From Auriscalpium vulgare (lineage: Eukaryota > Basidiomycota > Agaricomycetes > Russulales > Auriscalpiaceae): a stretch of DNA of 64,000 bases. Within the stretch, counting starts at the first letter, position 1. Each line of letters opens with the position of its first letter. Shown here piece after piece: positions 5,381 through 55,437 of the stretch. Where the stretch lies: positions 62,001 through 126,000 of the forward strand of contig JAHBBC010000039.1 in NCBI GenBank assembly GCA_019915015.1, in the 5' to 3' direction. The notes beneath the pieces are model-generated. The model was not told the origin of the DNA, made no database searches, and worked only from the letters and a program-made list of their open reading frames with translations. The position numbers and the translations under genes are program-made.

Positions 5381-6309
5381 TACGATTCCCTGAGTTTACG
5401 AAGTTGAATCGTTTACTAGGGGGTTTTTCGGGGTTGTGCCTGCATCTATTCGGTCATGGTCGCCGGGTGCCGGTTTGATCCCCGGTTTGATTGCCGTTGC
5501 CTTTCGGATTTGCTCATCGACTCTATCTAATAATCTATCTCACACTTGGTTCATTCATCCTGACTTCCACCAGCACCAGCACACGTCCCGTCCCTTGTCT
5601 ATGCTCTGTTAATTGCAGTGACGAGCGAGCTGATGGGAAGTTTTCTGTGACGCACCTTCGGCATCTTCCGGTGGCCACACCCGGCCCGCTTGTTTGGCCC
5701 GCTGCCGATGCCTTGCCAACAGCTCGCGCGTCCCCTTCGAGTTGTCCCTCTCGCCCACGACTCGCGTCCACATCACTCCACATCCCATCCTCTCGACGTC
5801 TCGCGCACCTGCCATTAAGTCCCAGCGCATCACCATGCACTGCTGCAGTCTGCGCGCCGTCGACCAAGCATTCTGCGGCACAGCCATGATTGGCGCCCTG
5901 CGCACCATCGGGGGTGGGCGCGACAAACCAGCGGGCTGCGGGACACCCTCCTGCATCTGCTTGGGTCGGATTTGGTGCGTCATATTAGTGCGCAGTTGGC
6001 TGTGCAATCAAGCTTACGCTGCTCTAGCCTAGCCTCGCTGGACGCAGACAACGGGTCCGACCCGCTCGTCGACGCGTCCACTCTCGCCGCGCATCTGCGC
6101 TTCGTCTTCCACCCGACGCTCCAGCACTTGATACCCCTGCGCCTCCTTCCCCCGCAGCACGCGCTCCTCGCTAGCCTCCCCACCTGCGCGCACTGAGCTC
6201 ACAAACCGCGCGCTGTTGGACGATGCGTCATGCATCTGCGCAATCAGCACAGCGCGCGCCCTGTCCTCCGCGGCCGCGCGTGTTGGGAATTCCACATATC
6301 GTCTGTCAC

Positions 6310-6860
6310 TGGCAAGCGGTACACAGACACTGTGTCCATTGCTGGCTTGACCGTACGTTCGCAGCTCTTTGCTTGCTGAGAGTCTATCTGACGCATTGTT
6401 TTCTGCTGCAGGCCACGGGTCAGACCCTCGGCTCCGCGAAGACCTTTTCTATGGGCTTCGATAGCTCCCAGTTCCCTGCGGATGGGCTGCTCGGCATGAC
6501 ATTCCAGTCGCTCTCGGACTACAACACCAACCCGCTCTTCCAATTGCTCATCGCGGTGGGTATCGGCTGCGTCAACAACCAGCTGTACTCCGGAGACTTC
6601 ACCACCGTCGACGTCTCCACGGCGGTCAGTATTTCACCACACAATCGTGATCGTGATGCTGATGCTTATGCGGTCGCTGCGCAGGTACTGGCAGACGACC
6701 TTCGACAGCATCTCTGTCAACGGCCAGCAGGTCAAGGACAGCACCGCGGCCATCATCGACACCGGCACCACGCACTCCTCCACCGCCATCGCGGCACTCT
6801 GCGCGCAGATCAGCGCCGCCCAAGAGGATGACTCTCTCGGCACCTGCCTCTACAGCAGTG
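6310..6860 (+). pseudogene. Fragment of pepsin-type (A1) aspartic protease
   Basis: The middle of a secreted fungal aspartic protease of the polyporopepsin type. A first piece reads RYTDTVSIAGLT and is followed by an intron (GTACGT...CTGCAG, about 6351-6412). The next exon begins ATGQTLGSAKTF and runs to DGLLGM and NPLFQLL, a signature stretch of A1 proteases. A later exon reads YWQTTFDSISVNG and contains the second catalytic motif AIIDTGTT at about 6755-6775. The N-terminal signal/pro-region and first catalytic DTG are absent, as is the C-terminal third, so it cannot make an active enzyme. It lies inside element A, upstream of and parallel to the DUF2009 fragment, consistent with capture by that element. 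Confidence 0.75.
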
Positions 6861-7065
6861 CGTATTCCCCTCGTATGTGCGCCGCATTGTCGGTGACACC
6901 GCGTGCACAGTCCCGTGCTCGTTCAACACACATGCGGACCTGCGGGATGCGTCGGCGTGCGATGCGTGGCGCCGTGCGCACGTTCGCTTGGGACATGGGG
7001 GTGAGTTCTTCGTTCGTCTTGTGGGATATATCTTCTGATCCCAAGTCGACTAGGGTGTTTGCGGC

Positions 7066-7850
7066 TTGAGACGAGAGCTTGACTTGCTCATCGTGAAGGC
7101 GCCGGCCCCCCGTCCCAACCTTGAGCTCATCTCGCAGCCCAAGATCGGCACGGACCCGGGCAGGTGGTTCGTCCAATGCGCGCAGTACATCCCGACGCAC
7201 CTCACCCTCAGTGAGTGCAAGTTCCTGCGGCTGCTCGATGCGGCACTCCAGGTGTCCGAGTACCCAGACAAGATCGACACCATCGGACTCGGGCTGAGCA
7301 AGGCGAAGCGCGTCGTGTACCAGATTCGCGAACTGTGCGCGATTCTGTCGGGGCTTATGCTCGCGGCAGACTACAAGCAGGGCCAAGAGCTGTTTGTGGA
7401 GCGCGACGTCCAGGGGAACAAGGAGTTCTATCAATGGATATTCGAGCTAGGGCGGTGCTACAAGATCACGAACCCGGACAAGATGCGTATTACATATGGG
7501 AAGCTCATATACCTGCTGCAGGTGCGTCTACATCGACAGTCTCGTGCGGGCCGACGATATTGACGCACGCTGTAGGACAGTCAAACACCAGAAGTCAAGG
7601 ACATCCTCGGTTTCTCTTGCGTCGCCCCCATCAACACCGTCTACACGCTCCTCGACGCGCACAGAGCGCTGGACATGCTGCGCGACTCCCGCTCATCATT
7701 GTCGCAACGCAGGAACTCACCACGATCAACCGCGGCCAATGCGAGATCCAGCGCGACATCAAGGCGAAGGAGCGCGCGATCGAGACGCTCTCTTCATGTT
7801 GGGTGTCGGCGGACCTGTCCAAGGACACGGTGCAGCAGGCGCTGTACATG
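7066..7850 (+). pseudogene. Fragment of DUF2009 protein gene
   Basis: Matches the conserved DUF2009 family of fungi and plants (function unknown). The first exon (7066-7520) contains the diagnostic order LRLLDAALQVSEY, KAKRVVYQIREL, ILSGLMLAADYKQGQELF, YKITNPDKMR and TYGKLIYLLQ. An intron (GTGCGT...CTGTAG, about 7521-7575) joins to DSQTPEVKDILGFSC and INTVYTLLDAH. Near 7686 the frame shifts (one base missing) before IIVATQEL, and the reading continues to KAKERAIETL, DLSKDTVQQALY. The C-terminal third seen in full-length family members is not found downstream. Retained introns, the frameshift and the location within element A mark it as a captured, decayed copy of a host gene. Confidence 0.78.
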
Positions 7851-8855
7851 CCACATCACTCGCACGCACAGCTATTCCACCCTTCCCTTACGCCAAGTTG
7901 CCAATGCGCACCCTTCCGTACTCGCACCCAGTTCCACACCATGTCACCCCCGCGCTCGTCATCCCTACCCTTCCGCCCTTCGTGCGCCTTGTTACCTACC
8001 GCCCAGCCCGGCGCGACAACCATCCAACATCGACATTCCGCGCCCCCCAGCGTCTTCCCGGCCCCGACTCGCAGAGTGACAGTACCGCGGTAAGTTTAGC
8101 AGCTCGTCAGAGATCTGGCGCACGTCTCATGATCACCCCTCGCCCCCGTCAGCTCATCCTTCATTCACCCGCGGCGCTCGAACACTCCAGCCTCCACCTT
8201 GGACGCCACAGGCACGTTGCTCTTTGTGTCTATCAACACGCACCTCGTCAACCCCGCACGATGACCTTGAGTCACCCAACACACAGTGTCCGCACGCCGC
8301 ACACCGTCATTGCCACTTGCGAGCACGATGCCCGACAAGTCATCCACCAGCCCCGCACGCCGCACCTGCACGCCGCGCCTCGCCCTCGTCGTCCGACGTG
8401 CCGCAAAGTGCCGCGGGCCTTCACTACCGCCCCTCGCTCGCCAGCCTGCGCATTCGCCAATGCACAGCCACCCTCATCCTCAATACACTGCGAGTCTTGT
8501 TTGGCAGCTATTTGCTTGGAGTGTGTCTAACCAGGCACCACATGTGAATAGCTGCTCAGCAGTAAATGCTACTTCTTCGTATAGACTTGTAGAGTACATA
8601 CATATAAAATAAGTACAACAAATTCTGCAAAATCATAGTCCATACAATGACCAGTGTTTGAGGTCTCCCGCTTGAACACGTCTGAGTCTCCGGCGCGGAC
8701 CCGGGACCAAGCAGTGACTCTGGCCGTGAACGAGAAGGCCGTAAGCACCCAGTGGCAGGTGTCCCTCATTGTGCGCAACAGGTTGAATCTTCTCTCGGTG
8801 CCTATTCAGTCGGAATCGTACTGCCATGCTCAGCAATGGCTCTCTAAAAGCTAGT

Positions 8856-10155: not shown

Positions 10156-10163
10156 TATAAATA
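10156..10163 (+). promoter_or_regulatory. TATA box of the small secreted protein gene
   Basis: TATAAATA, 57 nt before the start codon at 10220, with a pyrimidine/adenine-rich leader (CAACCCATCAGC, ATCCACCAACATG). The distance is normal for highly expressed basidiomycete genes. Confidence 0.65.
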
Positions 10164-10219
10164 TCCACTGCGACCCCCCAGATTCACCACCCTCCAACCC
10201 ATCAGCATAATCCACCAAC

Positions 10220-10441
10220 ATGAACGCACGCATCTTGTCCTGGTCCATCGTCATGCTGGCCCTTCAGCTCAGTGCCGTTCGCGCCGGTGTCATGCCCGAC
10301 AGTACGTCTCCAAGGCCGCGTCTCCTACAGAGCTGACCTGTGCCATGGTGTTCAGTCACCCCATGCGACAGTGGGCCCATTGAGGACCTCACATTGGTAC
10401 AGCGTGCCAACTGCTGCACGATAAATCCGAAGAATTGTTAG
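10220..10441 (+). CDS. Small secreted cysteine-containing protein, 55 aa, two exons
   Basis: Exon 1 is 10220-10301 and exon 2 is 10356-10441. The 54-nt intron has donor GTACGT, branch-like CTGAC (10332-10336) and acceptor TTCAG, and removing it keeps the frame to TAG. The product starts with a typical signal peptide: MNAR, a hydrophobic stretch of about 15 residues, and a likely cleavage after AVRA. The mature peptide is only about 33 residues with four Cys, in the order TPCDSGP, then NCC, then a C-terminal NC. The CDSGP...NCC pattern faintly recalls part of hydrophobin spacing, but a hydrophobin has eight Cys, so I do not call it one. A TATA box lies 57 nt upstream. It could be a secreted effector-like or signalling peptide; function is unknown. 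Both exons are too short to stand out as open frames. Confidence 0.72.
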
Positions 10442-14018: not shown

Positions 14019-15799
14019 GACTTGCACAGAACTCGGCCAAGTTTCGCTTGCGACTATCCCCGGCGCCGGAAAATTGTTACTCGAAACTCTTGAAAATTCC
14101 CAGGACAATGTCATCTCCTGCCGAGTATTGGCTACGGCAATTATGGCTGTCGGCCCAGATGCCTACCTGGATTATCCAGGACCACGACCTCGGAGGCTCG
14201 TTTTCCCGCTAGCGCAGATTACCGCTGCTGCCACAGTCTACAAGGACTTCATCAATATGTTCTGCCGTTAGTTTCCCAAGCATTTCATATCTGCGCGCCG
14301 TTGATGGGCGTCCAACTGGTAGTGAGGCGGATATATATTGATGTCCAATCCTCAGAGCGCAGTAGTGAACGTATCGAGTTGAGGGAGTGCAGTCAGGGTC
14401 CCGAGACTACGCACGGCAAATCCTGCTCGGAGTACGAGTAGGACACAGTGACTAGGACTTGGATCGGTGTGCGCGAGAGGCTGGGGGAGAGGACGATAGT
14501 GCGAGAGCTAGACACGGCACGGATCACCGAAATGATACAGTGCTGGAGACGCGACGGGCGAGCTCCCAAGAATGTGTCACGGAAGCTAGGAATGTCGGAG
14601 GGGACGCGAGGACTATTTCGAGAGTCGAAGGGGATTTACGCAGCGGTGGCAATGGTCGAGGGAATATATCGAGGGAGAGCGGGACGGAGTATGAGGCGGT
14701 GACGAAGGAACAGAGGGGCGTATATAGGCCTGATCTCTGCGTTGAAGGTGCGGGGTGTCGAGGGGGAGAGTAGCGAGGCGTAGGGAGATTTCGAAGGGCA
14801 AGAGGAGATTTGTCGAGGGTCGTGGTATTGGTATTCGTATTGATATTGCGGCGTGGTATTGGTGTCGAAGTTTCGTGCGTCTAAGAGCTAGAGCGACGGG
14901 TTGTGGTGAAGTCAGACCACTTCAGGCGCTCTTTCGAGATCCTGAGTACGAGGGGGAATAGTAACTTGTTATTCCGTCTGTCTAGCGACTCAGAACTATT
15001 TGTACGACAAGCGAGTCGGAAATCCGTATCGTACGGACGTGACATAGTGAAGACAAATACGATCCAAAACGCGGGAGACGTGGGTCAGATATCACGAGGT
15101 GTACGACGTGGACGCGGGGGAGTGAGTATACGAGGGATGTGGCAAGAGAGGATCGTTGAATTACGGACGGTTTAGGTTTAGTTCCGACTTACGATCGCCG
15201 CTAGGGGGCGGAGTGCGTATTAGCGCGCTAGCGCTTATATCGTAAGGCGCTGGTGGTGTATCGTAAAGTCAAGCGGGGTATCCGATGTATTCCGAATGTA
15301 AATTGAAGGGAGGGACGTACGACGGGCGGTCTTGGCTCGTTGTGTAGCGCTCCTGCCTATCTTGGACGGCTGTGGATTAACGTAGACGGGACTATATTGT
15401 GGATCGAGATGTGGGGAATATCGAGGAATCGGGGGACGCAGAAGGGAAGTATGATTGACAGCGGCGCATCACGGCGGGGAAGGATTGTGGCGTGTGGCTC
15501 CGAGTCAGATAGCCGCTGGGTGACTGTTTGTGCGGGGCCGTAGGATTGTGGCGTGTGGCTCGGGGCGCTTGGTGGGGCGTGTAGGCTATTTCGAGTGCGT
15601 TTGGGGCGCTTTTCGATAGACGCTGCGGGGTGGTAGTGAAACCTGATGGTGCGGACCGAGGCCGGCAGGCCGAGGTCACGTGATTTCGGAAGATGCCGAA
15701 AATGCCAAAATTCGGGTGTTTCTCCGCTAGACGGCTGGGCAGGCGTATCACCGTTTTGCTGACCCAAGCGGCTCTCAGAAATTGAGTTGTGTCGTGGAC
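14019..15799. other. Intergenic, purine-rich top strand, no gene recognised
   Basis: About 1.8 kb. The top strand of 14380-15180 is strongly G/A-rich with many CGA and GAG triplets, and it contains a TATA-like GCGTATATAGG near 14717. It might be a decayed LTR or a promoter region, but I could not find a second copy or terminal repeats. No NACHT or other N-terminal domain belonging to the downstream WD40 block was found here. Confidence 0.4.
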
Positions 15800-16582
15800 A
15801 TGAAGACGACGTCAACTCCGAATGACAACTCGGTAGCGTTCTCCTCCAATGGAAGTCGCATTGCTTCGGGCTCGGACGACCACACGATCCGGTTATGGGA
15901 TGCACAGACGGGGGAGATTGTGAAAGGGCCGTTCACGGGGCACACAGATCGGGTCTGGTCCGTCGCCTTCTCCCCCGGTGGCACGCATGTTGTTTCCGGC
16001 TCGGCCGACCAGACGATTTATCTCCGGGATACCGGTGCGGGGAAGACGGTGGCAGGGCCATTCACGGGGCACACGCATTGGGTCCGGTCCATTGCCTTCT
16101 CCCCCGATGGCATGCACGTCGTCTCGGGCTCAGTGGACACGACAATTCGAGTGTGGGATGTCCAGACGGGGGAGACAGTGGGAGGGCCTTTCACGGGGCA
16201 CACAGGCTCCGTTCTGTCCGTCGTGTTCTCCCCCGATGGCGCGCGCTTCGTCTCGGGCTCGAACGACAACACGATTCGCGTCCGGGATGCCCAGACGGGG
16301 GAGACGGTGGCAGGGCCGTTCACGGAGCACACGGATGATGTTCGGTCTGTCGCGTTCTCCCCTTCGGATGGCACGCGCGTTGTCTCGGGCTCGTACGACA
16401 GGACCGTCCGTATTTGGGATGCCCAGACGGGGAAAAAGGTGGCGGGCACATTGACTGGGCACACGAGTTGGGTTTGGTCTGTAGCATATTCGCCTGATGG
16501 TAAGCTTCAAGTTGCGTCGGGCTCGGAGGATGAAACAGTACGCATATGGGATGCAGAGGTGGATGAAGAACCTGAAAAGTGA
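15800..16582 (+). CDS. WD40-repeat protein, six repeats, probably a 5'-truncated NLR tail
   Basis: A single open frame of about 260 codons consists of six WD40 units of 43 residues (129 bp), each of the form SVAFSPDG, VSGS-D-TIR-WD, AQTGETV, GPFTGHT. WD40 repeats form beta-propeller recognition surfaces; a full propeller usually needs seven blades. The units are unusually alike in DNA sequence, as in the WD40 domains of fungal NACHT-WD40 (NLR-like) allorecognition proteins, where repeats evolve in concert. The ATG at 15800 opens only eight residues before the first blade, and no NACHT or effector domain is visible upstream, so this looks like a severed C-terminal part. Two blades have RD in place of the terminal WD (YLRD, IRVRD). 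It ends DEEPEK-stop and is parallel to nothing nearby. Whether it is expressed is unknown. Confidence 0.75.
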   Translation: MKTTSTPNDNSVAFSSNGSRIASGSDDHTIRLWDAQTGEIVKGPFTGHTDRVWSVAFSPGGTHVVSGSADQTIYLRDTGAGKTVAGPFTGHTHWVRSIAFSPDGMHVVSGSVDTTIRVWDVQTGETVGGPFTGHTGSVLSVVFSPDGARFVSGSNDNTIRVRDAQTGETVAGPFTEHTDDVRSVAFSPSDGTRVVSGSYDRTVRIWDAQTGKKVAGTLTGHTSWVWSVAYSPDGKLQVASGSEDETVRIWDAEVDEEPEK

Positions 16583-17045: not shown

Positions 17046-21130
<4,085 letters not shown>

Positions 21131-32728: not shown

Positions 32729-32730
32729 TA

Positions 32731-33456: not shown

Positions 33457-33499
33457 TAGTATCCACTGGAGCATGTCGATCCTTGTGGTGCAGTGTTAG

Positions 33500-41921: not shown

Positions 41922-41924
41922 TTT

Positions 41925-41941: not shown

Positions 41942-42011
41942 GGTATGGTGATGACGATCGTGTTCGAGCTTTAAAATCAGCCTCGTAGACGGCACCCGGT
42001 CGCTGATCAAC

Positions 42012-44313
42012 ATGGCGCCGAAACCCAAGATAGCCCACCTCCCAACGCGAACACAGCCGCAGAGGACCACGAGGGCGGACGCTCGCAATACGTCGCGACA
42101 GGCGGCCATAGAGGCAGAAATCGAGGAACCACAAGACGAACAGGGGGAAGTCTCATCGCTATCAAGTCTGCCATCAGAAGAAGAGGATCCGCATGGACCG
42201 ACCCTCAGTAGGGAGATCCGACGCGCCGGAGAGGACCCTAGGTCCCTGATCACAGGAGGGGATCGCGTCACGATCGAGGGACTAGAAGGTTTGCTTCTGA
42301 ATTCTGATGGTGGCGATAGCGACCATCACACACGGCATGATCCGGAAGGGGAATGCTCGAGGAACGAACGGGTCAGTCCGGGATGGGGACGGGCCGTTTC
42401 CTTACAAGATAGGACTTCGCAAAACGTCGCGGAAGCTAGCAACAATCCCCAAGAAGCTCCATCAAGCCGTTCGAACCCCAGCAACCCAAAGTCGCCAACA
42501 CAGTCAGGAATGAGTACACAGCAACAAGGAACAGGAACAGGTGGAGGAGGCGGCGGCGGAGGCGGAGGCGGTGGAGGAGGGGGAGGCGGCGGACAACAGG
42601 CAATACCGCCTCAGCCCAACGTCGCGCCAGTCGCAATGCCTACCCGCGGGGACCGCAACGCACCGTCTTTCAATCAGAAGGCCCGCGAGTTACCGCGTTA
42701 CTTCGACGAGCTGAACCATCTCTTTGCCCGGGCTCAACTAGCGGATGATACGGCGAAGAAGGGCCATGCAGTGCGTTACCTAGACGTCGCGACGGCTGAG
42801 GAGTGGGAAGCGAGGCCGGAGTTTAAGGATCCCACCAAGACCTACCAAGACTTTCAGGACGCCATTGTTAAACTGTACCCGGGAGCCGATGAGGACCGCA
42901 AGTATACCATCGCGGACATGGACGCGCTCGTAGGCAGTCGGTACCGTCTGGGCATTGCGTCCGGCGGCGAGCTCAGCGAATTCTATCGGCAGTTCTTCGC
43001 GATCACCGACTTCCTGGTTAAGAAAAGCAGGATCTCGACCCGTGAGCGCGATATCGCGTTCCTTCGCGCTTTCCAGGACAGCCTCATGAACAGGGTGGCG
43101 ACGAGACTGCAGATCAAATTGCCGGACCACGATAAAGAAACACCGTACCCCATGGCCGACGTGCTAGAGGCAGGAGAGTACGAGCTGAGGGGCACTCCCT
43201 CAATCGTACCAGCGGTCAGCGCAGGACCGGCAGTGGCGGTTGCAACGACGGAGCCTGTAATCAAAATAGAACAGTTTCAAGAAGCAATCAAAGCCGCGGT
43301 TGCCGAACAGTTCGCGCGGATGCTCGTCAACCAGGGGAACGGCGGAGGTCAGAGGGGTTATGGGGGTACCTCGGGAACTCAACAGCCGCGCGCCACGCAA
43401 GGAAATCAAGGCGGACAGGGAGGGCCGTCAGGATGCCTTTTCTGCGGCCAAACGGGGCACTTCGTCAGGGAATGTATGGTGGTCCAGGACTACATCGCGA
43501 CGGGTCGCGTATCTAGGGACCACAACAACCGGGTCGTTCTGAAGGGTGGAGGACTTATCCCGCTAGGAGAAGGCCCGCTGAAGCAGCGTGTGGATGCGTA
43601 CTACGCCGGGAATCAACACGGACAGTCAGAAGCCATGATGCTGACGACGATGGACTACGAGCCAGTGCCGGCCAAAGTGCAGACGGTCGCCGGCCTAATC
43701 CAACTGACGCCGCAATTGACCGACGAAGACAGAATGACGGAGCTCCAGCAGGAGATGGCAGTGCTCCTGACGGCCCGAGCGGAAAGGCAAGCTCAGAAGG
43801 AACGCCGGCAGGCCGCACTGGACGCGGGCGAGTTTCCCCAGGCAATAGGGCTGCTGCCTGGCGAGCGCGAAAGATCGCGACGAATTCCAGAGGTGGTCAT
43901 TCCGAAGAGGAAGCCGTTTACGCAAGCCAAGAAGCAGGTTTCCTTCGAGCCGGAGGCCGTCGACCGACCAGGGGAGACTGGGGATAGCGCAGACAAACAA
44001 AGGCAGGCCGACGAAGACACCACAGCGGGTGAGGAGCCGTTAACACCTCCGATCCACCCTTTCGCGAAGGTGCCCGACGCGACGTACATAGGGCCGGCAA
44101 GTTACCAACGAAGCGCGGGGCAGCGCAAGGCGGACCCAGCATACAATAAGGTCGCCCCGGTCCGCGACCCCGTAATAGCAAGTAAGGTTTATGAGAGGGC
44201 CATGAATGCGGAGGTCACCTTGACACAGAGGGAGCTCATGTCCATTGCCCCGGAAGTACGCGCTCAAGTTCGCAACGTGGTGACCCCTAAGCGGGTCCCA
44301 AACGAGGCAAGAG
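42012..44313 (+). pseudogene. Inner element gag, cut by element D
   Basis: ATG at 42012 (MAPKPKIAHLP). Gag capsid-like region with LPRYFDELNHLFARAQ, AVRYLDVATAEEWEA, LIRYRLG-like SRYRLGIASGGELSEFYRQF and RDIAFLRAFQDSL. A CCHC zinc knuckle CLFCGQTGHFVREC lies around 43435-43476. A GGAGGC microsatellite (42541-42594) encodes about 19 glycines, an unusual flexible insert. The frame runs towards protease (EPLTPPIHPFAKV, PKRVPNEARV) but is broken at 44314/44315 by insertion of element D; the same frame resumes at 48460. The few codons after 44314 up to the stop at 44366 belong to element D. Confidence 0.9.
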
Positions 44314-44349
44314 TTACGATTACTCTTAATCGTTTCTTTCTTCAACCAA

Positions 44350-45270
44350 GTCAGGCCAAAACGTGAACACATTATAAGTCGCTTTAGGAAATAGATCCCA
44401 CGGTCAAGTCGCGTCGTCCCAACTGCCTTTTTCAGTAATTCTTAGCTAAGCAGGTCCTGCCGCACCTTGCAGGATCCTCACACTTCAACTATAGCACTAG
44501 CATGGTTCTCATGACGAGTACTCTTCATTATGATTCCTCCTAATCATTTATTTCCTTCATCAGTCAGGCAAAATGCATGCATTAGAAAGATTGCTCTAGG
44601 AGATATGTCCCAAAGCTTGGACTAAAGTCAAGTCGTGTCATCCCACCTGCCTAATTCTGTAATTCTTAGCTAAGTAGCTACTGCCTGCCCTGTGATTTAC
44701 ACACCTTTGCACTGCAAAGACACTCGTGTCTGCGAGTATTTTGCATTTTCCAAGCTAATTAGCATTGATATACACATGATACCAATTGTTCTCAAGTCAG
44801 AAGAGAAGGCCTTCTAACTTCCCTTTTTGGTAACATGTTCCCACGGGGTGACAATGGTGAGGTTGGCAATTGGGAGGGCTCTAGTTGCTAACTACCATGC
44901 ATTATATATACCAGAAGTGTTGAAAGGATGTTGATCATGTGAATAGCCAATAATATAATTCCTCAACAAGCGTGGGAAAATGACGCAGTTGAATCAGGCA
45001 GACTGGGATTTTTGCCGGTCAATGAGTCATTGCTTACTAATCCCGGGGATAAAGTACCCGGTTACCCGGTAATTGAGCAATTTTTAGCTAAGTAGCTCCT
45101 GCCCAATGTTTTTCAACACCTTCTCACTTCCAAAGACACTCATGTCTGCAAGTATTTTGCGTTTTGCAAGCTAACCAGCAACAATATGAACATGTTTTCA
45201 ATTGTTCTCGAGTCAGCAGAAAATACTGCACGATTTCCATTTTAGGTAATATTTCCCCACGGGTAGGCCA
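44350..45270. repeat. Three diverged copies of a ~300-420 bp unit
   Basis: Starts near 44352, 44566 and 44994 (TCAGGC...). Shared strings: TTAGCTAAGTAGCT or near, followed by CTGCC; CAAAGACACTC-TGTCTGC-AGTATTTTGC in copies 2 and 3; CAATTGTTCTC-AGTCAG; and GGTAA-ATGTTCCCACGGG or near. The copies are heavily diverged and non-coding. They form the left part of element D. Confidence 0.65.
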
Positions 45271-45392
45271 AACACGCAACCATGACGCATCAACCGGCAC
45301 TTTCAACTGTGTGCAGGTTTAAACGCGTCATGGTGCACAACCCGGCTACTACAATACCCGGGCTGAATAATTATATTATTAAAAAGTCGCAC

Positions 45393-45466
45393 AGAGGGAG
45401 AATTGAACCTACAACCTCTTGGTTCTTTATATCAACCAATAGTATTGACCACTACACTACAAGGCC
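45393..45466 (-). ncRNA. tRNA-derived sequence with Pol III terminator
   Basis: On the minus strand the sequence has a D-arm/A-box (TAGTGTAGTGGTCAATAC), an anticodon-stem-like hairpin (TTGGTT/AACCAA) and a T-arm/B-box (AGGTTCAATTCTCC), correctly ordered and spaced over about 74 nt. TTTTT follows 7 nt after (45381-45385). The 5' and 3' acceptor strands do not pair, so it is not a functional tRNA but a tRNA pseudogene or SINE head. It lies in element D. Confidence 0.6.
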
Positions 45467-45587
45467 ATTCAGCTTTGTAGGATATGTACAGTACTTGTTG
45501 ACCTTCTATCTTCTCCTGCCCTACAAGACAATTTGCTCTTTGCATCAATTTCTTTTCCCTTCTGTGGTACTTTGGGAAAAGATATAT

Positions 45588-47165
45588 TACGATTCCCTGA
45601 GTTTACGAAGTTGAATCGTTTACTAGGGGGTTTTTCGAGGTTGTGCCTGCATCTATTCGGTCATGGTCGCCGGGTGCCGGTTTGATCCCCGGTTTGATCT
45701 CCGGTTCCTTTCCGTCCGGCCGGCCCGACCTCGCACCCACGCGTTGTCCCGCCTTGTCCCGCCACGGCGCTGTCCAGTGTCCTCGCCAAGGTCCTCGCAT
45801 GCCCACCGTCCTTGCACGTCGCACTCCCTCCTCGTCACGCTCGTCAACGTGCACCCAGGCAAGGTGAGTTTGTGTATAGTAGCTACTACGAGATTGCGCT
45901 GCCTCTAACCGCGCCCGCAGCACCACCGTCCCCAGCTCGTGCGGCGCCGCCCCAGCTCGCCCACGCCGCTCCAGCTCACCCGCCGCCGCTGCCACACCCT
46001 CCGCACCCTCCCAGCGCGTGCGCTGCTGCACCACCGGCCCCCCAGCGCGCCCGCCGCTGCACCACTGTCCCCCCAGCGTGCGCGCTGTCGCCCTAGCAAC
46101 GGCCGCGGCGCCCAGCTCGCCCGCCCCGCTCCAGCTCGCCCGCCGCCGCTGCCACACCCTCCGCAACCTCCCAGCGCGCCCGCTGCTGCACCACCGTCCC
46201 CCTAGCGTGCGCGCCGTCGCCCTAGCAACGCCCACGCCGCCCAAGCTCGCCCGCGCCGCTCCAGCTCGCCCGCCGCCGCCACAACCTCCCAGCGCGCCCG
46301 CTGCACCCCCGGGGCTGCACAGGTGTCAGCGCGGTGCAGCGGCGGGGCCAAGTGTTCGGTGGCGGTCTGGGCGCACGCACAAGCAGGGTGCGAGACAAGT
46401 CGGTCGTCAGCCTCGCTGCCATCGCACTGCGCTGACAACTGCTCACCTCGACCTGTCGAGGAAGCCCAACGCGCGCCTCAGAGGCGACCTGGAAGCGGCG
46501 CCACGTAGGATCGTCGAGGGATCGCGGACCGCGACGATGCGCCAGTGCGTGGGGTACGCTGCCACCCTTCTGTGGCTACGCGTCCGTGGCCACGCGCCGC
46601 GCGCTGGCGTTGGACGGGCAGGCACAAGGTGAGGGCGTGGGGAAGATGCCGAGCGTGTTGCACGGGCGACGTCCGCGCTGCGCGCACAGCAGCATATGAG
46701 AGTGAGGTGAACATATTGACAGCCTCGCTGGCGTTTTGTCACACTGACAGCTACACACCTCTCAGGGCCCAATTTCAGCGGCACACGGGCGTGCTGTGGG
46801 AAGGCGGTCGCCATGGCGATCCGGTGGCGTTGAAGGACCAGTGAGCGCGGAAGGCCGAAGCTCAGCCCGCAGAGGAGCGCACGCGCGAATTATGCGGCCT
46901 GTTCATTCCGTAGTACGCTCGGCTCATTTCAGAATGTATTGTCTTTCAGCCCGTAAACTAGTATCAAAATATAAAACCATGCAGAGCTGGGAGATCGGGG
47001 CCTGCAGTCGTCGACGCATCCATCAATTTGGTGTTAATTCTCAAAGATTCATTTCGGCCATGCACCAACAGCACCACAATCACTTGCCTTACATGCTGTA
47101 ACCACATGTACATAATGTACAGGAATCGTATCGCCATGCTGAGCAGTGGCTCTCTAAAAGCTAGT
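45588..47165 (+). mobile_element. Element B: helentron-like element nested in element D
   Basis: Same 5' ~110 bp as element A (TACGATTCCCTGAG..., one mismatch over the first ~100 bp). 3' part: GGAATCGTA (47122-47130), hairpin GCCATGC/GCA-g-TGGC (47133-47150), then the identical 14 nt TCTCTAAAAGCTAG (47151-47164) and T. A and B are thus one family with the same ends and unrelated cargo. The interior is very GC-rich, with Pro/Ala/Arg-type frames and tandem repeats but no recognisable host gene. It is inserted in element D, which is in the inner retrotransposon, which is in the outer one. Confidence 0.78.
45940..46310. repeat. GC-rich tandem repeat (~170 bp unit, about 2.3 copies)
   Basis: Repeated blocks CAGCTCGCCCGCC, CCGCTGCCACACCCTCCGC, CCCAGCGCG and GTCGCCCTAGCAACG recur in order from about 45940, 46110 and 46235. 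They encode Pro/Ala-rich chance frames. They lie inside element B. Confidence 0.65.
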
Positions 47166-47339
47166 ATATATAAAGCTACAATTATTGTGATTTGCAAAAT
47201 GGATGAGATTCACTGAAAAAAAGAGTTCAGAGGTCTTCGACCCGTGGGCTGCGGCGCCACCAGGTGCCGTGGCTTTGCTCTTGACTCCAACGCTTACACA
47301 TCACCGCTGCTTCCCACAACATGTGACGTGTTGTCGCTG

Positions 47340-47685
47340 TCGTGCTGACGTGCCATGAGACATCGACAACATGTATCTCAGCTTCTACTGCACCTGTGGA
47401 GGTGGTTCTGGGCTCAATCGAGATAGTGATGTATACTATCATGACTGATTCACATATACATGCAATTCTATGGTGCTACTGTGGATAGAAATTACATACA
47501 TGTGAAAATGAAATACAACTCTTTTGCCGTGAAATACAGCATCAGATAAACTCTTGGGCATCTTAGGAATACATGACATCCAAGCCCTTGATTGAGCCTG
47601 GAACCGCCTCCATAGGCGTAGTGGAAGCCAAGATACACATTGTCGATGTCGTGTGGCACGTCAGCACAACGGTGACGGCACTGAT
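47340..47685. repeat. Inverted pair of related peptide-like segments
   Basis: 47340-47430 and 47595-47685 are inverted copies, about 80% identical over ~85 bp. Read outward-in, both encode the same pattern (IEP-T-S-G-VEA-IH-VDV-WHVSTT; minus strand for the left arm, plus for the right). Most differences are transitions, many of them synonymous. The origin is unknown. They lie in the right part of element D. Confidence 0.6.
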
Positions 47686-48459
47686 ACACATCGCTCCATG
47701 CCGCGAGGCGATCATTACAGAATTTTCGCACTTTCATCAAGTCGACAGACACACAATTCTGAAGATCGCAGCATCGCACAGCAGTGCTCCGACCACCTGA
47801 TTAGTTCTTCCAACCGCTCGCAAGATTGGAGTCTTGCAGAGCAGTCACGCAATCGGAATCATACCTTGAACACCACACTCGCGCCAGCGACGCTGTCGCA
47901 CGCAGCACACACAGTCATCCGACCACTTGCTCGTTGTTCCAACTGCCACCATGTGACCTCGAGCACAGCACCTCCCACAGCTGTCACAATGCGTCGGAAT
48001 TCCATCAGACATGTTTACTGTTGAGATTGGCATCAGAATGTATGCACGATGCCACTCCAGTCACTGTGACATCTGTATTCCTCTGCAGTCGCACTATTGT
48101 CCTCTGACCATTGTTCACCTCAGTTCTTGTACTCACACTGCATCGTTCTGATCCCGATTGTTTTGTATTTTTATCAGCGTCCCGATTATTGCCTCAGGAT
48201 TCTGACCACCATTCCGGAGCATTCTTACCGGAAGAATAATCACAACGTCACAACATTGCAACACTCACCTCCGACCACCTAGTGCATCGGAGCATGCAGG
48301 ATGTTGAGCTACCACCCAGTGATAGAGACAATCCCCAAGCCTAGACTGTCAGCAATTTTGCTTGGGTATATTTAATGGCCAAGCCCCTCTCCCCCCTGCC
48401 CCCTAAATGATTAAGAGTAATTGTACTGCCATGCTTGCACTGGCCATTTCCCACCAAGT

Positions 48460-51400
48460 ACCAGTAGTCCAGGCGATGGTGGAAAGCGAACCAGAGCTCT
48501 TTCCGTTCGACTTTGACCAGGACGAAGGGGCAGGAGAGGACGAGAAGGTGGTGAGGGGATTCGCGGACCATATGCCCGAAACCTTTCTGCAAGCCCTGGG
48601 ACACCAGCCAACGGAGTTGCCCGAGGGGACGCGTGTAGGAGAAGTCATTGTGGAGGTTCTGATGGGAGATCTAGGAGAAGCAGGAGAAGGGGAACCAGAC
48701 CCTGAGCCGTTGGAAGTCGCCAAGGAATCGCTGGCCCTCCGTTCGATCTTGCCACTAGTCGACAACCAAGCGCACATTGAGGCAGTCGTGGATCCCGGGT
48801 CGCAGATTATTTCCATGTCCGAGGATGTATGCCATTACCTCGGGCTGCATTACGATCCGAACGTTCGCCTGGATATGATATCGGCCAACAAAAGTCGCGA
48901 TAGGTCGCTAGGCCTGGCTAGAAACGTCCCGATGAAGATTGGGGGTATAACGCTGTACGTACAGGTGCATATCATCCGCAACCCGGCGTACGACATGCTC
49001 CTGGGGAGGCCCTTTGACGTTCTCACGGGAAGTACCGTGCAAAACTTTGCAGACGAGAGGCAGACAATCACGATCACGGACCCAAACACAGGAGTCATGG
49101 CGTCAATCCCCACTATTCCACGCGGCCGCAAGCGCATCTCGCGAACCCAGAAGCAGGGGGTGGAGGGTTTTCGCGACTAGAGGATTTGTTGGAGGACCAG
49201 GAGGAGGTAGGGCTGGTCGTGGGGTTCGAGCCCGATAAGCCTGATACTCTTAGAATGGAATCCCTGGTGTACCTCGAATCCTCGCCTACAATCGAAGATG
49301 TGCAGTCAGCTTATTTGTCAGTGTGCGACCTACCGGAGGAATACGCGGGAGTGTTCGCGAAGCGAGCGGAAGAAGGAGAGGAAGAGGAGGAACGAGCAAG
49401 AGCAGGGACGTTTATTTGGACGGCGGCAGACTGGGGAGACGGCGAGAGTGGGAGAGAAAGAGAGGAGGAAACGGACAGAGGTGAGCTACAGCCGACCGCG
49501 ATGCAGCGCGAAGTCTTTGCGGCCACGAAGAAGCGTTACAAGCCAGCACACCTCAAGGTAAAGCCCATTCGTACGGACCTGCCGGAGCACTTCCGGATCC
49601 TCAGAGAGATCAGAGGGGACCCCCTGGCGGATATGCCGCCGCTCCCAGAGAAGCCACCGGACTTCGTACCCACGGGAAGGTATACCGCGGAACGTCGCGA
49701 ACAATTTGACCGAGTCCACGACGGAGATTTCCTATGGCCGGAAGAAAGGAAGCTCATGCATGCATTTATGTGCGCACAAAACGAGGCATTTGCCTGGGAC
49801 GACTCGGAGCGGGGCCGCTTCCGAGAAGACTTCTTCCCCCCCGTCACAATACCAGTAGTTCCGCATCGGCCGTGGGTTCAGCGAAATATTCCGATTCCGC
49901 CAGGGATATACGACAAGGTCATGGCGCTCATCAAGACCAAGATCGCCGCGGGAGTCTACGAGGACTCAAACTCGTCGTACCGCTCTAGGTGGTTCTGTGT
50001 GGTTAAGAAGGACGGGACCAGCCTCCGTATAGTCCATAGTCTGGAACCCCTGAATGCGGTGACCATCGCGCACTCAGGAGTACCCCCCTTCCCAGATCAT
50101 TTGGCGGAGCAGTTTGCGGGGCGGCCGTGCGGGGGAATTCTGGACCTCTACGTGGGCTATGACGAAAGGAGACTAGATGAAGCCTCAAGGGACCTCACGA
50201 CTTTCCAGACGCCGTACGGCGCAAAACGGCTGGTGACCCTGCCTATGGGGTGGACGAATTCCGTCCTGATCTTCCACGACGACGTGACCTTTATTCTCCA
50301 ACCGGAAATCCCACATATTACGGTGCCTTTTATAGACAACGTCCCCCTGAAGGGGCCGGACTCGGACTACAGGACGGAAGGCGGAGGATACGAAACGATC
50401 CCCGGCAACAACGGCATAAGGCGGTTCGTATGGGAACACTTTAACAACGTTAACAGGGTAGTCCAACGAATGCGCTACTGTCATGGCACGTTCTCAGGAT
50501 GGAAATCACAGCTGTGCGTACCAGAATTCTACGTGGTAGGGCATCGCTGCACACCGCAAGGAAGGATGGCAGACGAAGAAAAGGTCGCGAAGATTCGCAA
50601 TTGGGGGCCGTGCACGGACCTCTCAGACGTACGGGCTTTCTTGGGGACAGTTGGAGTCCTGCGCATCTTTATCCGTAACTTTGCGCACCGAGCCCATGCC
50701 TTGACACACCTGACGAGGAAGGACGTCCCGTTCGAATGGGGACCCGAACAGTCGCGAGCTATGGAGGACCTCAAGGAGGCAGTCCTCGCATCACCAGCGC
50801 TCCTACCGATTGATTACACGTCGGAGGCCCCCGTGATCCTAGCGGTAGACACCTCGTACATCGCGGTGGGTTTCCTATTGAGTCAGGCGGACCCCAACGT
50901 TCCCCAAGACAGGAAGAGACGCCGATATTCTCGATTTGGTAGCATCGCGCTAAACGATCGCGAAGCGCGGTTCTCGCAGCCCAAGCTGGAGCTCTATGGT
51001 CTTTTTCGAGCCCTGCGGGCCCTTAAAAGTCTACCTGATAGGGGTGAGGAACCTGACCATTGAGGTCGACGCCAGGTATATCAAAGGCATGCTGGAAAAT
51101 CCTGACCTCGAGCCATCGGCCAGTATGAACAGGTGGATTATAGGCATCCTGATGTTCCATTTTGAGCTAGTGCACGTGCCGGGACTCTTCCACGGGCCCG
51201 ACGGCCTATCCAGGAGGCGTAGGCAACCAGGAGACGCTCTGGAACAGGAAGACGACTTTGACGACTGGGTTGATGCGGTGTATGGTTTCGCACATATCGT
51301 AAACATGGTAGTCCCGAAGACAGCGCAAGAGAGAGCCTCGCGACGGCAAGATGGATGGACGGGGCCAGGAAGCATACCAGACGAACATGGGGCTGGTTCA

Positions 51401-51845
51401 AGCCAGGACGCGATACGTCGCGAGGAGGCCCGGCGCTCCCACGATGAACCGGCCGACGTCTGGGCAACTACGGTCCAAATGCAACCCGCACCAGTACAGG
51501 ACGCGACGTATCGCGATGTTCCCAGATCAGACAAGGCTCATGAAGCTGACAAGCGGCTGGAACTAGTCAGGGACTGGTTAGGGACCCTGGCGCGGCCGGC
51601 GGACTTGACCGACGAACAGTTCGCTCGTTTCGCTCGATACGCGCTCCAGTTCTTCAAGGATGGGGACCGCCTTTTCAAAAGGCACCACCAAGGCAGGCAC
51701 CAACTCGTGCTGGGAGGAGACCGACGTATCGCGGTCCTCAAAGCAGCTCATGACGATGTCGGACACAAAGGCGTCTACGCGACGCGGATGATGCTGTTGG
51801 AGCGTTTCTGGTGGCCATACGTGAACGCAGACATGGCCAGGGAAG
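48460..51845 (+). pseudogene. Inner element protease-RT-RNase H-partial integrase
   Basis: Continues gag after element D. The protease region has AVVDPGSQIISM (DPG where DSG/DTG is usual) and MLLGRPFDVL. A frame-0 stop at 49178-49180 is preceded by a -1 slip site (49165-49171). RT follows in the -1 frame: WFCVVKKDGTSLRIVHSL, TLPMGWTNS and the active-site position VPFIDNVPLKGP (FIDN where YLDD/FADD-type motifs are usual). RNase H shows LAVDTSYIAVGFLLS. One extra A in the run at about 51026-51029 shifts the frame again; reading continues as VYLIGVRNLTIEVDARYIKG. The integrase zinc domain gives AHDDVGHKGVYATRMMLLERFWWP and then stops at MAREGGR; the Cys pair, the catalytic core and any chromodomain are missing. 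The copy is non-autonomous. Confidence 0.85.
49165..49171 (+). other. Candidate -1 ribosomal frameshift heptamer
   Basis: G GGT TTT in the protease reading frame matches the X XXY YYZ slippery rule. It lies three codons before the frame-0 TAG (49178-49180), and the RT frame is open in -1 from exactly this point. It would join gag-protease to RT. Confidence 0.55.
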
Positions 51846-52113
51846 GGGGGAGATAGGGAGAGGTGAGGGGAGGAAAGAGAGAGACGGAGAGGTCGAGGCG
51901 CAACGCGTCGCGTTAAAACGGGGCGCCGCGCCAGCGTGTGGGTTTTTGCTTCCGACGTGGAAGCAGAGCGGGCCCGCCGGGCCGCGACAGGTGCGGCGCT
52001 TACCTTCACACGGCTTAGCGAGCGTTCGCGCGCGAGTCAAGAAGAAGGGATAGGGAACGGAATGGCATTACTGGGCCCTAAGGGCGCCTTGGGCAAATTA
52101 CAGGAATCGCTCG

Positions 52114-53022
52114 CTACGCGGGCGCACCGGACCCAGACGCACCATTGGGCGCGGGAGTCCGGGCGCGGTTACCCCCATTCCTACGACCAGCCCGTCGACT
52201 CAGGGCATCAGGAGGCCTCGGGCCCACGACCTCAACAAGGTTGGGGACCCCCCACGAGAACGCGATAGAGCCGCGGCGGATGACTCGGTGAGTAAGCGGC
52301 GGGAAGGGAAGGGCGGTAAGCATACGGCGCATAGGACCGGCACCGGCGAGGTGGTCGAGGACCGCGGCAACTTCGCAGGCATCGTACAGCAGCTTTCCCG
52401 CGGTGCCTTCGAGGCGAGTGACGGCGTGGCGCAGGTGGCTGGCGTTCAATTGGTCCGCCCAAACGAAGTCGCGAAGCTCCGCGACCAACTTGAGGCCGGG
52501 AACGAGATAGTCGGCGGCTTCACGGACGTTCGCACGATGGGCAGCCTGCAACGAGGGACTCGCGGCCGCAAGGAAGTCGAGGACGCCAATGTCGCGGGGG
52601 TGGGTCATTCCGATCACGGCGCGGTTCAAGGGGAGCATGAGGGCCCCGACCAGCCCGTCGGCGTGGTCGAGGTCGTCACTCAAACGATCGAGGTCGCGAA
52701 GGAATAACTCGGCAACACGGGTGGCAAGGCCGTCGGGACGGGGGGCAAACTCGGGGCCGAACAGCGCTGCCAAGTTGACCTCGAAAGTTGCCCGGCCGTG
52801 AAGTTGGTGACGGTACAGCAACCAAACGGAGCGCTCCACCAGGTGGGCCAAGGAGTCCACATGGACCACGTGAGGAAGCAGAGCGACGCTGGGTGGCTGC
52901 CCCGGGGCGTTGTCCCCTCCGAACGGAATATTTCCTACGATATTCGCGCGAATGGGGGCGGTTTGTTCGAACGTTTCGGGAAAGCGCTCCGCTAGGTAGG
53001 AGAGCGTCGAGACGACGGTCAT
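52114..53022 (-). CDS. Antisense gene Y in the inner element, unknown
   Basis: A 302-codon minus-strand frame beginning MTVVSTLSYLAERFPETF. It is mostly helical and hydrophobic-balanced (HVVHVDSLAHLVERSVWLLY, AELFLRDLDRLSDDLDHADGLVGAL, NVREAADYLVPGLKLVAELR) and ends in a basic, Gly/Ala-rich tail. The frame is open upstream to a likely acceptor (CCCCTTTTCAG near 53060). Further upstream, coding-like stretches (53101-53615: SWAHAGGSVWVAICRDN, DYLLHMQAVLLRAF, AWLQEISDLLVRRP) suggest X and Y could be one long gene broken by a one-base shift in a C-run near 53325. No homology recognised. It sits where the integrase core should be. Confidence 0.55.
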   Translation of the reverse strand: MTVVSTLSYLAERFPETFEQTAPIRANIVGNIPFGGDNAPGQPPSVALLPHVVHVDSLAHLVERSVWLLYRHQLHGRATFEVNLAALFGPEFAPRPDGLATRVAELFLRDLDRLSDDLDHADGLVGALMLPLNRAVIGMTHPRDIGVLDFLAAASPSLQAAHRANVREAADYLVPGLKLVAELRDFVWADQLNASHLRHAVTRLEGTAGKLLYDACEVAAVLDHLAGAGPMRRMLTALPFPPLTHRVIRRGSIAFSWGVPNLVEVVGPRPPDALSRRAGRRNGGNRARTPAPNGASGSGAPA

Positions 53023-53605
53023 GGACGCGAGGGCCGGTAGGGTAAAATGCGACGTCTCGCGATGGTCCTGCTGAAAAGGGGGGAAGAAGCGAAGACAACG
53101 TCAGTACGAGGCCGGGATGAGGGAAAAGAGGGCCGCGGGACGACGCACCAATAGGTCGGAGATCTCCTGAAGCCAGGCAACGGCGGCCGCGGGAAATGAG
53201 GAAGTGTCGGCACCAGGCAAGGGCACCTCAACCGGATGTATCAACAGCTGGTACAGCCGGAAACGCGAAAACGCGCGGAGAAGGACGGCCTGCATGTGGA
53301 GGAGGTAGTCGGACGGACTGGGGCGTTGAGGGTTTTGGAAAAGGCCATCGTCGCAGCCCCCTCATATAGGCGGCGCGAGTAGGGAAAGAGGCACACCATC
53401 GCGGCGTCGCGATACAGCGCGAAGACCAAAACACGAGGGTCTCGCCGGAGTTCCGGCCAACGTGGGTTATCGCGACAGATCGCGACCCAGACGGAGCCTC
53501 CGGCATGGGCCCAGGAGCTTATCGCAAGGCATCGCGAAACGTGGCACAGGGACAGGGGGAAGCCGCACATGGCTCCTGGTTCCATTTCAATAGCTATGGA
53601 ACATT

Positions 53606-55437
53606 CTACAGACATTGGCCCGGGAATATACCTATTCCTCGCGCTCCATCAGAAGCTCGATCACCTCCCCTCCTCGACTTCTTCCGAGCTGGCAATGGGC
53701 GGCGGTATCTCCCCGCGTAGGTAGGAGACGCGGAGGGGGCCGTCGGCGCTGGTACCGTGGGGTGCGCGGGGAAGGGAAGAGGGCCCGGCTGGTCCGAGGG
53801 ATGGACTATGGCATCGAAGCCTAGGGGTATCTCAGCTATGGCTTGGGAGGAGGAGATGTGCGAGAGGCGCGCAGAACTGATCTGCTCGATGGCGCGAATC
53901 GAGGCCACGCTGATATCCTGGACCAGGAAGTCTGCGGGCTGGAGGTTGGCCAGGAGGCGGGACCCTAATCCCCATGCGTCCAGCATCCCGCCCATACAGG
54001 TTGCCATTGCGGCCCAGCGCATGTCGAGGCGATCCAACACCAGTGGCCAGTCCGCCCAAATATCGCGAAACGTGTCGAAGGCCTCGGAAATGGTGGTAAA
54101 GTCCCGTAACATATCCACCGAGTCCTCCGCGAGGCCCCCCAATAGGTAGTACACCACGCCCGTGGTGAGGCGGCCCGCGTAGGCACGAGAGTGGGGGGAG
54201 CTGGAGGCACCACGGACGTGGTAGGCCAGGGCGCGGCACACGGCGTCTTCGCGGGTAATAACAAACATCCCATGGACGGCCCGGGTGTCGAAATCACGTA
54301 GGAGCCAGCTCTGCATCCCCTGAGGACGCAGGGTGGGGAAGGCGCCATGCAACTCCGTGATTTCATGGAGGTAGGATTCGACAGAACCGTCTCCGAAGTA
54401 GTACACGGTCCAGAGCCCAGCCTCCACGATGGTGATCAAGACGTGGAGTTCCGCGTCGGTAGCGTCGGCAGGGAAAGGGGAGAACATCTGGGACCACCGC
54501 GGGCTGGCGCGCGCTGAGTCGGGGAGGGTACGCATGAGGGTGCCCTCGAAGCGCTGGGCGAGAGGGGCGGACGCTGGAACGAGCTTCACCATGAACTCGA
54601 GGATCGGCGAGGTGAAGTGGAAGGCAAGATCGCGCAGGCTGCGGGACGCGCGGATTGAAGAAAGGGTCTGGAATTGAGTTCATCATCAGCCAAGCCGGGA
54701 AAAGACGCGGTTACGATTCCTATGAATCGTTGCTTATGTCATCTACATACAGCATTTTTTCGACCCATGCAACGACAGTCTGTGTCGCCTTTTTTGGGAA
54801 TTTACTCCCACGCTATGTCTACTCACGCTTTACCCCTCCTCACTTTCGCTCCACAAAACATACACAAATGATTGCCTACATACACCATTTATTAGACCAT
54901 GCAGCACATACAGAAGTTGCAGAACAGTGATGTTGGAAGAACTAAGCAGCACCAGATAACGCAGGCAGAAATACGATGACATCACTCCGGGGTTTTGAAT
55001 TACATTTAGAACCCGGAATGATGTCATCACCCTTGATCCCACAATGACCACCTCAGGCTGCAACTGCACAATTTCATGCCCTCCGGTGTCGCCCAATGGT
55101 GCACATTAATGCCCACCGTTGTTTGGTACCCCTAGGGCCACCCAGTTGTGTTTTAGTGTCCAATTATGTCTCAATGCTATTATTTAATGTATATATTTGA
55201 TTATGTAACCAGAAACCACTTTGAGCGGAATCGTACTGCCGCGCTACACGTCGGCCCACTCCCAGCAAGTCGGGGACCAGCACGCACCACGAGCTGGTTG
55301 ACTTTGTCGGCCCACTCTAGACGTAGCGCAACCTCCCGTTCGGCATCCCCAAGGTCAAAACCAGCGAAGGGGGCCTGCGTCAACAGGCGGAGGAGGTCGA
55401 GGTTGTTGGCGGTGGCAGACGCTGCGGGGAGGGACAT
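53606..55437 (-). CDS. Antisense gene X in the inner element, 403 aa, spliced, unknown
   Basis: Exon 1 55437-55288 (MSLPAASATANN to ADKVNQLV, 50 codons), exon 2 54667-53606 (TLSSIRASRSLRDLAFHF to FPGQCL-stop). The phase-0 intron is 61 nt after removal of element C, with donor GTGCGT, branch CTGATG and acceptor TTCCAG. The protein is alpha-helical without recognised motifs (VLITIVEAGLWTVYYFGDGS, YYLLGGLAEDSVDMLRDF, RWAAMATCMGGMLDAW) and ends in a basic patch PARKKSRRGGDR. A TATA box lies 60-70 nt upstream of the ATG. Its stop overlaps the ATG at 53615 by 10 nt; alternatively a 38-nt GT-AG intron there (GTATAT...CATAG) would fuse it in frame to the next segment. It is oriented opposite to gag-pol. 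Captured host gene or element-specific antisense ORF: undecided. Confidence 0.6.
54712..55270 (+). mobile_element. Element C: small helentron-like element in an intron
   Basis: 559 bp. 5' end TACGATTCCTATGAATCG, with an immediate hairpin ACGATTC/GAATCGT. 3' part: GGAATCGTA (55227-55235), CT, bulged hairpin GCCGCG/CG-t-CGGC (55238-55255), then exactly 14 nt (55256-55269, CCACTCCCAGCAAG) and T. AT-rich, no coding. Removing it leaves a normal 61-nt intron of antisense gene X, so splicing could tolerate it. Its 3' end resembles element D more than A/B. Confidence 0.72.

Follow-up and report, generated by a model that had tools for sequence, protein, structure and literature searches.

In the current view of rolling-circle transposition, a single strand of the element is copied, starting at a 5' signal and stopping at a 3' hairpin. 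Helitrons reach 14 kb in fungi and 39 kb in maize according to a review of 2019 (PMC6431247). Insertion between TTTT and T or C is a trait of the Chlamydomonas families of Helitron2, and is not one of the two defining features of the group given by Bao and Jurka (PMC3627910). Here we describe four elements, A, B, C and D, in a stretch of 64,000 nucleotides of the mushroom-type fungus Auriscalpium vulgare (the window; assembly GCA_019915015.1, contig JAHBBC010000039.1). The window is C39:62001-126000 of the genome searched (51.6 Mb in 96 contigs), whose coordinates underlie all contig names and positions given below (C1, C4, C9, C23 and others), while positions of the elements A to D and their parts are those of the window. 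The four elements are very probably non-autonomous rolling-circle transposons of the Helitron2 kind, A and B belonging to a family that has giant, Rep-bearing members. We also think it probable, with less assurance, that this is a Helitron2 lineage in which an autonomous giant of about 41 kb or more, carrying non-transposon genes, has been copied and integrated in one piece by an enzyme of the rolling-circle type.

All four elements lie on the plus strand, and are present at the starts that a preliminary description of this DNA had given. Element A occupies 5381..8854 (3,474 bp) and contains two captured-gene fragments, B occupies 45588..47164 (1,577 bp) and is nested in D, C occupies 54712..55269 (558 bp), and D occupies 44315..48458 (4,144 bp with B, 2,567 bp without) and is inserted in the open reading frame (ORF) of a Ty3-like retrotransposon. 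The ends of A were read directly, and the first ~110 bp and last 14 nt of B are as in A. The preliminary description had proposed a 3' end code, made of an inverted copy of the 5' repeat, two bases, a GCC..GGC hairpin with a bulge, 14 nt to AG and then a T, which is exact in all four elements. The bulged hairpin measures 18 nt in A (8823..8840, tail 8841-8854), B (47133..47150, tail 47151-47164, the same as that of A) and C (55238..55255, tail 55256-55269), and 17 nt in D (48428..48444, tail 48445-48458), all on the plus strand; the element ends on CTAG in A and B only, and on CAAG in C and D. The inverted repeats are longer than had been described, 9 bp in A to C (8812..8820, plus strand, for the 3' copy of A) and 16 of 17 bp in D, where the 3' copy at 48409..48425 (plus strand) is complementary to the 5' end. 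These are asymmetric terminal inverted repeats (ATIRs) as in Helitron2, the 5' repeat being terminal and the 3' copy subterminal, 33-34 nt from the end, where the published distance is about 20-30 (PMC3627910).

The 5' ends form hairpins too, which the preliminary description lacked and which are strong, since only 0 to 2 of 200 shuffles fold as well. That of D (44315..44334, plus strand) is formed by the 5' ATIR and has a DNA fold of -4.6 kcal/mol (z -4.17), that of C (54712..54731, plus strand) reaches -5.7 kcal/mol (z -6.10), and that of A (5381..5413, plus strand) has a longer loop (z -2.94), B being identical at 45588 by alignment. The 5' hairpin of Helitron2 is thus found in A, C and D with z from -2.9 to -6.1, and in B as the sequence of A.

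Both end patterns were then counted genome-wide, a search that the preliminary description had put forward, and both are far above chance. The 5' pattern TACGATTN6AATCGT has 353 matches, against 4 for the same pattern written backwards, and the 3' pattern AATYGTAYYGCCNNGC likewise has 353, against 0. From these 353 matches the fetched DNA yielded 38 distinct 3' ends, ends at locus edges (among them L108) being excluded. As the pattern had served to fetch most loci, the repeat and the first GCC are there by construction, while the second GGC, the tail and the T are independent of it, the 14-nt tail being tried first in the fit. GGC closes the hairpin and a T follows directly in 38 of 38 ends, and the tail is 14 nt long in 37 and 13 nt in one (L079, C2:351290, the only such end). 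The hairpin starts 2 nt after the 3' ATIR in all 38, as in Helitron2 and partly by construction of the search, and is 18 nt long in 22 ends, 17 nt in 15 and 16 nt in one. A T also precedes 33 of 34 distinct 5' ends, the lone exception being a match that starts in a target which itself reads TACGATT (L010). All but one of the 38 ends could be parsed. In these 37, stem pair 4 is never broken (A-T in 24, G-C in 13), and stem pair 5 is T-A in 28, C-G in 6, T-G in 2 and broken in 1. The two pairs covary; the copies are related, so this represents a few compensatory changes and not 37 independent events. Against this, single 3' hairpins are weak, since in a DNA fold test against 200 shuffles per element 61 shuffles fold as well for D, 25 for A, 10 for B and 6 for C. 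Taken together, the end structure is more than chance.

Some ends have a more complex arrangement. Double 5' termini, in which a 19-nt hairpin abuts a further 5' end, occur in L005 (C1:275922) and L012 (C1:3581276) and, from match positions only, at C2:1617112/1617137. The 3' side of the L005 element lacks the remainder of an outer element (L058), and L005 therefore resembles a chimeric end more than a plain nested insertion. Two A/B-type 3' ends, L053 and L054 (C1:10531 and C1:10621), stand opposed to each other only ~90 bp apart.

Empty sites define where the elements end. For B, C and D at least 40 matches each were listed, to which the figures refer. When the flanks of D are joined with a single T, all the matches listed are 99-100% identical over 219 bp, with 10 at the top score, and the same holds for C, with 16 at the top score. 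A has one empty site, C1:954792-955009, 86% identical over the whole join and again with a single T. The best of the empty places listed for B reaches 98%, with the junction inside a TA run of variable length, and no TT is present in the three copies read. Two further insertions agree: a 2,072-bp C-type element lies in one of the giants described below, the first C4 copy, at a place where the C1 and C23 giants are empty with a single T, and the empty site of a D-type insertion (L010/L063), read in the window, also has a single T. Since the empty sites of A, C, D and these two insertions all hold a single T, the target is one T. Such alignments, which had been suggested earlier, place the termini of A to D within one nucleotide of those first given; the last base then assigned to each element is, however, the flanking target T, and because this T belongs to the target we set the ends one base earlier. 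Ownership of the first T by the element, ownership of the last, and copying of the T would be indistinguishable from sequence, and an equal ambiguity of the terminal T at the target is reported for the FoHelis of Fusarium oxysporum (PMC5148889). Insertion between TTTT and T or C is not found here, since at the empty sites a single T stands among varied neighbours. The ends of Helitron1 (5' TC, 3' CTRR, no 5' hairpin, insertion at A^T) are not found either, the elements having a 5' TACGATT with a hairpin and a T target.

Genes with a Rep domain, which in a Rep-helicase (RepHel) is joined to a helicase, are numerous in the same genome. The Rep domain PF14214 has 50 matches, many of them in open frames near 2,400-2,500 amino acids (aa). 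In the first C4 copy a single frame of 2,458 aa carries DUF6570, PF14214 (Rep) and PF05970 (PIF1 helicase), and the frame stops 10 bp short of the AATCGTA in an end whose 14-nt tail is identical to those of A and B. The Rep and helicase domains of Helitron2 are thus found in one frame beside an A/B-type 3' terminus, and the Rep-helicase partner that the preliminary description proposed to look for is present, sharing its 3' tail with A and B. At their 5' ends A, B and the Rep-bearing copies have ~110-125 bp in common, and at the 3' end A and B agree with the C4 Rep copy over ~45 bp. Compared with Helraiser (Helitron1), the C4 RepHel scores 39.9 bits, in the helicase part alone, against 686.6 bits for L021 (C18:949340), a Rep-Pif1 protein of the same genome that is outside the A-D family; judged by these scores, the C4 RepHel is not close to Helitron1. 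A protein search with RepHel returned 753 relatives, of which the best 120 are 37-45% identical and nearly all have DUF6570, Rep and Pif1, and because of this number and of the shared domains among those listed we assign it, by sequence, to a large protein family. No significant Pfam match was obtained for its C-terminal domain.

The genome holds further groups of Rep genes. The loci C7:1374721, C9:838701, C13:1587586 and C19:371893 have an identical score and a 2,397-aa frame, and are apparently another recent Helitron family; C58:37611 has the same score. At C3:1035735 is a Rep that belongs to a second lineage (61% to the giants) and is followed after 4.9 kb by a D-type 3' terminus (C3:1030841); for this reason D may have its own autonomous partner.

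The preliminary description had likened the elements to Helitron2 or helentrons. Its Helitron2 part holds, given the Helitron2-type ends and the Rep-helicase, but its helentron part does not. Strict helentrons would have a TT target and a RepHel with an AP endonuclease, and a T is indeed found on both sides of the elements, as counted above for the 34 5' and 38 3' ends. The empty sites nevertheless hold one T in A, C, D and the two further insertions, with B ambiguous and without TT, which rules out a TT target. Neither an AP endonuclease nor an OTU domain was matched by Pfam at E 0.01 in the C4 RepHel, searched as pieces of 663 N-terminal and 1,794 C-terminal aa, nor was an AP endonuclease matched in its last 251 aa at E 5, and we therefore rejected strict helentron membership, which we consider very unlikely. 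That the elements are of the cut-and-paste type, with a DDE transposase and imprecise terminal repeats, is scarcely credible: a one-base target duplication would, we reason, also yield T..T, yet the inverted repeats are asymmetric, a 3' hairpin is present and a Rep gene ends beside the same terminus. The suggestion that fixed spacing and a bulge may define a new family is, on these features alone, routine, and the terminal anatomy is that of a new member of Helitron2.

The Rep-bearing partner of A and B appears to be very large. At five loci an A/B 5' end and, just behind a Rep gene, an A/B 3' end are found on the same strand and in the same order, 53.9-77.6 kb apart: C1:149908-210420 (60,513 bp), C4:20764-80973 (60,210 bp, the first C4 copy), C23:441171-495022 (53,852 bp), C9:335865-413502 (77,638 bp) and C4:1899297-1968457 (69,161 bp, the second C4 copy). 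The open frame at their Rep is 2,482 aa long in the C4, C9 and C23 giants, 2,439 aa in C1 and 1,591 aa in the second C4 copy. The 3' ends are at the expected place, 5.43 kb downstream of where the Rep match starts, and among the 30 Rep loci fetched from the 50 matches one cluster at ≥85% identity consists of the five giants and no others. A plain autonomous A/B element of ~10 kb was also sought, and in the DNA read no A/B 5' end occurs a few kb upstream of a Rep; the nearest same-strand ones are 48-72 kb away, in a consistent order. The genome has 41 A/B-type 5' ends, and five of them are 48-72 kb upstream of the same-strand Reps of the giants. With 48 of the 50 Rep rows used, a same-strand Rep lies 48-72 kb downstream of seven of the 41, compared with 0.76 expected for 40-80 kb, a range picked after the five giants were known. 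The other two 5' ends, C4:820749 (Rep C4:755957, 65 kb) and C9:901170 (Rep C9:838701, 62 kb), are possibly further giants, or chance.

The giants were compared by two internal samples of 200 bp, both ends, the Rep locus and, for C4, C1 and C23, 2.3 kb upstream of Rep. The sample at C1:175001, taken 20 kb upstream of the C1 Rep, has five matches genome-wide, one per giant, with 99-100% identity, and the sample at C1:204001 is found in the same five giants at 100%, 3.5-6.2 kb from the 5' end, with one relative of 76% elsewhere. Four giants agree throughout the first 200 bp, from which C9 departs by one base, and there is no difference among the five over the last 76 bp, a stretch that contains the end of the Rep frame. 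Beyond both termini the flanking DNA is unrelated among the five. When the flanks of the C9 giant are joined with one T, they give an uninterrupted frame of 65 aa with a Pol_BBD match over the joint (residues 3-58, E 4.2e-6); this giant splits a retrotransposon Pol domain, and is the best single proof that the unit has moved.

These comparisons bear on the possibility that the five loci are segmental duplications holding an ordinary Helitron and a separate A/B 5' end, with no giant transposition. A recent duplication would also give 99-100% identity over long stretches, and samples alone were compared. The homology stops, however, at TACGATT and after CTAG in five of five copies, with unrelated flanks, and in C9 each flank holds half of a Pol domain, the two meeting at one T. 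Moreover, the C1 giant contains no internal 3' end of the searched pattern, and the first C4 giant only that of the nested C-type element. We give segmental duplication a small probability. A different proposal concerns two Helitrons side by side, one having lost its 3' end and the other its 5' end, that were mobilised together once and then copied as a unit. It accords with capture by bypass of the 3' end, the prevailing view of Helitron capture (PMC6431247), and with the multiple 5' termini that arise by self-insertion in FoHelis (PMC5148889) and that we also see here (L005, L012). This tandem composite, which we consider possible and on the whole doubtful, would be an origin of the giants and not a rival for their present mobility, as five insertions with the same outer ends make the composite itself the mobile unit. 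We thus return to transposition of the giant as one unit.

The length of that unit has to be set apart from the lengths observed. The shortest landmark intervals found among the giants sum to 41.0 kb, and the unit that moved was probably ~41 kb or more, although the shortest intervals could instead reflect deletions. Nested in the giants are the C-type element (first C4 copy), Ty3-like copies (C9 and the second C4 copy) and, identified by 200-bp translation, a Ty3-like piece in C1. The retrotransposon pieces are probably separate, later insertions, and because they look later the length of the jump was perhaps near 41 kb rather than 54-78 kb.

Several points weigh against movement of the giant as a whole by a Helitron2 enzyme. 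The interval lengths vary widely, from 14.7 to 28.8 kb between the samples and from 17.0 to 53.3 kb between sample and Rep, the nested elements account for these length differences only in part, and the retrotransposon pieces in the C1, second C4 and C9 giants have differing intervals or orientation. Colinearity is judged from the samples, the ends and the Rep locus only. The Pol_BBD match at the C9 joint is marginal, with a score of 27.4 for a cut-off of 27.0, a genome search for an intact empty copy of that site gave only its own flanks, and the joined flanks of the other four giants give open frames with no domain evidence. The Pif1 domain was read in the first C4 copy only, and the Rep frame of the second C4 copy may be broken elsewhere. 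Finally, the nick, circle and strand steps of the mechanism given next are taken from the literature.

In the mechanism that we propose, the Rep domain would nick the donor strand beside the 5' hairpin and the Pif1-like helicase would unwind the DNA, so that the displaced strand would reach as far as the 3' repeat and the bulged hairpin, which would mark the stop. The 3' repeat would pair with the 5' repeat, and the bulged hairpin and tail would place the second cut, roles that are in line with the Helitron2 proposal of Bao and Jurka in 2013 (PMC3627910). The displaced strand or circle would then be joined into a single T, either as TTACGATT..AG at N^T or as TACGATT..AGT at T^N. If the stop were missed, the copy would run into neighbouring DNA until another stop was met. 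The giants probably originated by such read-through or by composite insertion, and may have kept transposing thereafter because only the two ends and RepHel would matter.

Gene-derived cargo is found in both a small and a giant copy. Element A contains, on the plus strand, a fragment of an aspartyl protease gene (6409..6591; PF00026, E 5.4e-5, 23.2 bits for a cut-off of 19.9) and an exon of a DUF2009 (non-canonical E2) gene (7180..7521; PF09418, E 1.1e-38). An apparent retained intron (7522..7575, plus strand, GT..AG) separates this exon from a second DUF2009 exon, which was assigned by its continuing frame and not by family score; unspliced, the intron brings two stops, and if it is spliced the frame is open. 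Because the intron is apparently still in place, the host DNA in A seems to have been captured as DNA and not as spliced RNA. In the giants, a BTB-like gene lies near the 5' end of the C9 copy (PF00651, E 4.4e-4, 20.9 bits for a cut-off of 20.5), and the sample at C1:204001, present in all five, falls in the open stretch neighbouring this gene.

As to the surroundings in the window, one Ty3-like retrotransposon copy (42012-55270) hosts both D, with B nested inside, and C, and empty sites matching D and C lie ~9.55 kb apart in other copies of the retrotransposon, for example at C36:176874 and C36:186426. A search of viral contigs with its gag found no relative. The ORFs of the window fit a fungus, probably a basidiomycete of the mushroom type. 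An ORF at 15782-16582 has WD40-like repeats that, judged by eye, are very alike among themselves, and ARAGORN, run on the window with the bacterial code, found no tRNA.

Among the systems described so far, the elements are most readily compared with Helitron2, with which they share short asymmetric terminal inverted repeats, a RepHel, a 5' T, compensatory changes in the hairpin, a 5' hairpin that includes the 5' repeat and a 3' repeat directly before the 3' hairpin; in contrast to the Helitron2 elements as published, they have a single-T target, a one-base bulge, a nearly fixed 14-nt tail and Rep-bearing A/B copies of 54-78 kb (PMC3627910). The FoHelis of F. oxysporum also have Helitron2-like ends, multiple 5' termini, self-insertion and an ambiguous terminal T, but in their description they measure ~5-11 kb, begin with TCAG or TGCCT and end with ATTTT or CTCCTGT, whereas TACGATT, CTAG or CAAG and giants are found here (PMC5148889). 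HELPO of Pleurotus ostreatus resembles the present elements in being from a basidiomycete, in its captured genes and in a CT[A/T]G 3' end, and reaches 13.7 kb; it differs by its T[C/G] and CTRR ends, its AT target and a RepHel of ~1,400 aa (PMC4289320).

In size, the giants as found (54-78 kb) are longer than any Helitron in the open-licence literature that we searched, where no report of giant Helitrons was found, an absence that is no proof. Maize Helitrons have canonical Helitron1 ends. The gene-capturing ones likewise contain host gene fragments and reach 39 kb, which is close to the 41-kb core and below the 54-78 kb of the giants (PMC6431247). Judging from the five near-identical insertions, with their core of ~41 kb, a single Rep-helicase with a single 3' stop appears able to manage about three times the size figure for fungi. 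Giants and short A/B copies (1.6-3.5 kb) with exactly the same ends would be natural giant and mini substrates for one enzyme, and because they share these ends processivity, termination and cargo capture are directly testable. Another parallel is with Starships, which have been described from Pezizomycotina and which are also giant, cargo-bearing and move as a unit within fungal genomes. Starships use a tyrosine recombinase, whereas here a Rep-helicase is found, and we know of no Starships from mushroom-type fungi. If our reading is correct, the giants would be a possible vehicle for gene blocks in these fungi, and a Rep-driven counterpart of Starships.

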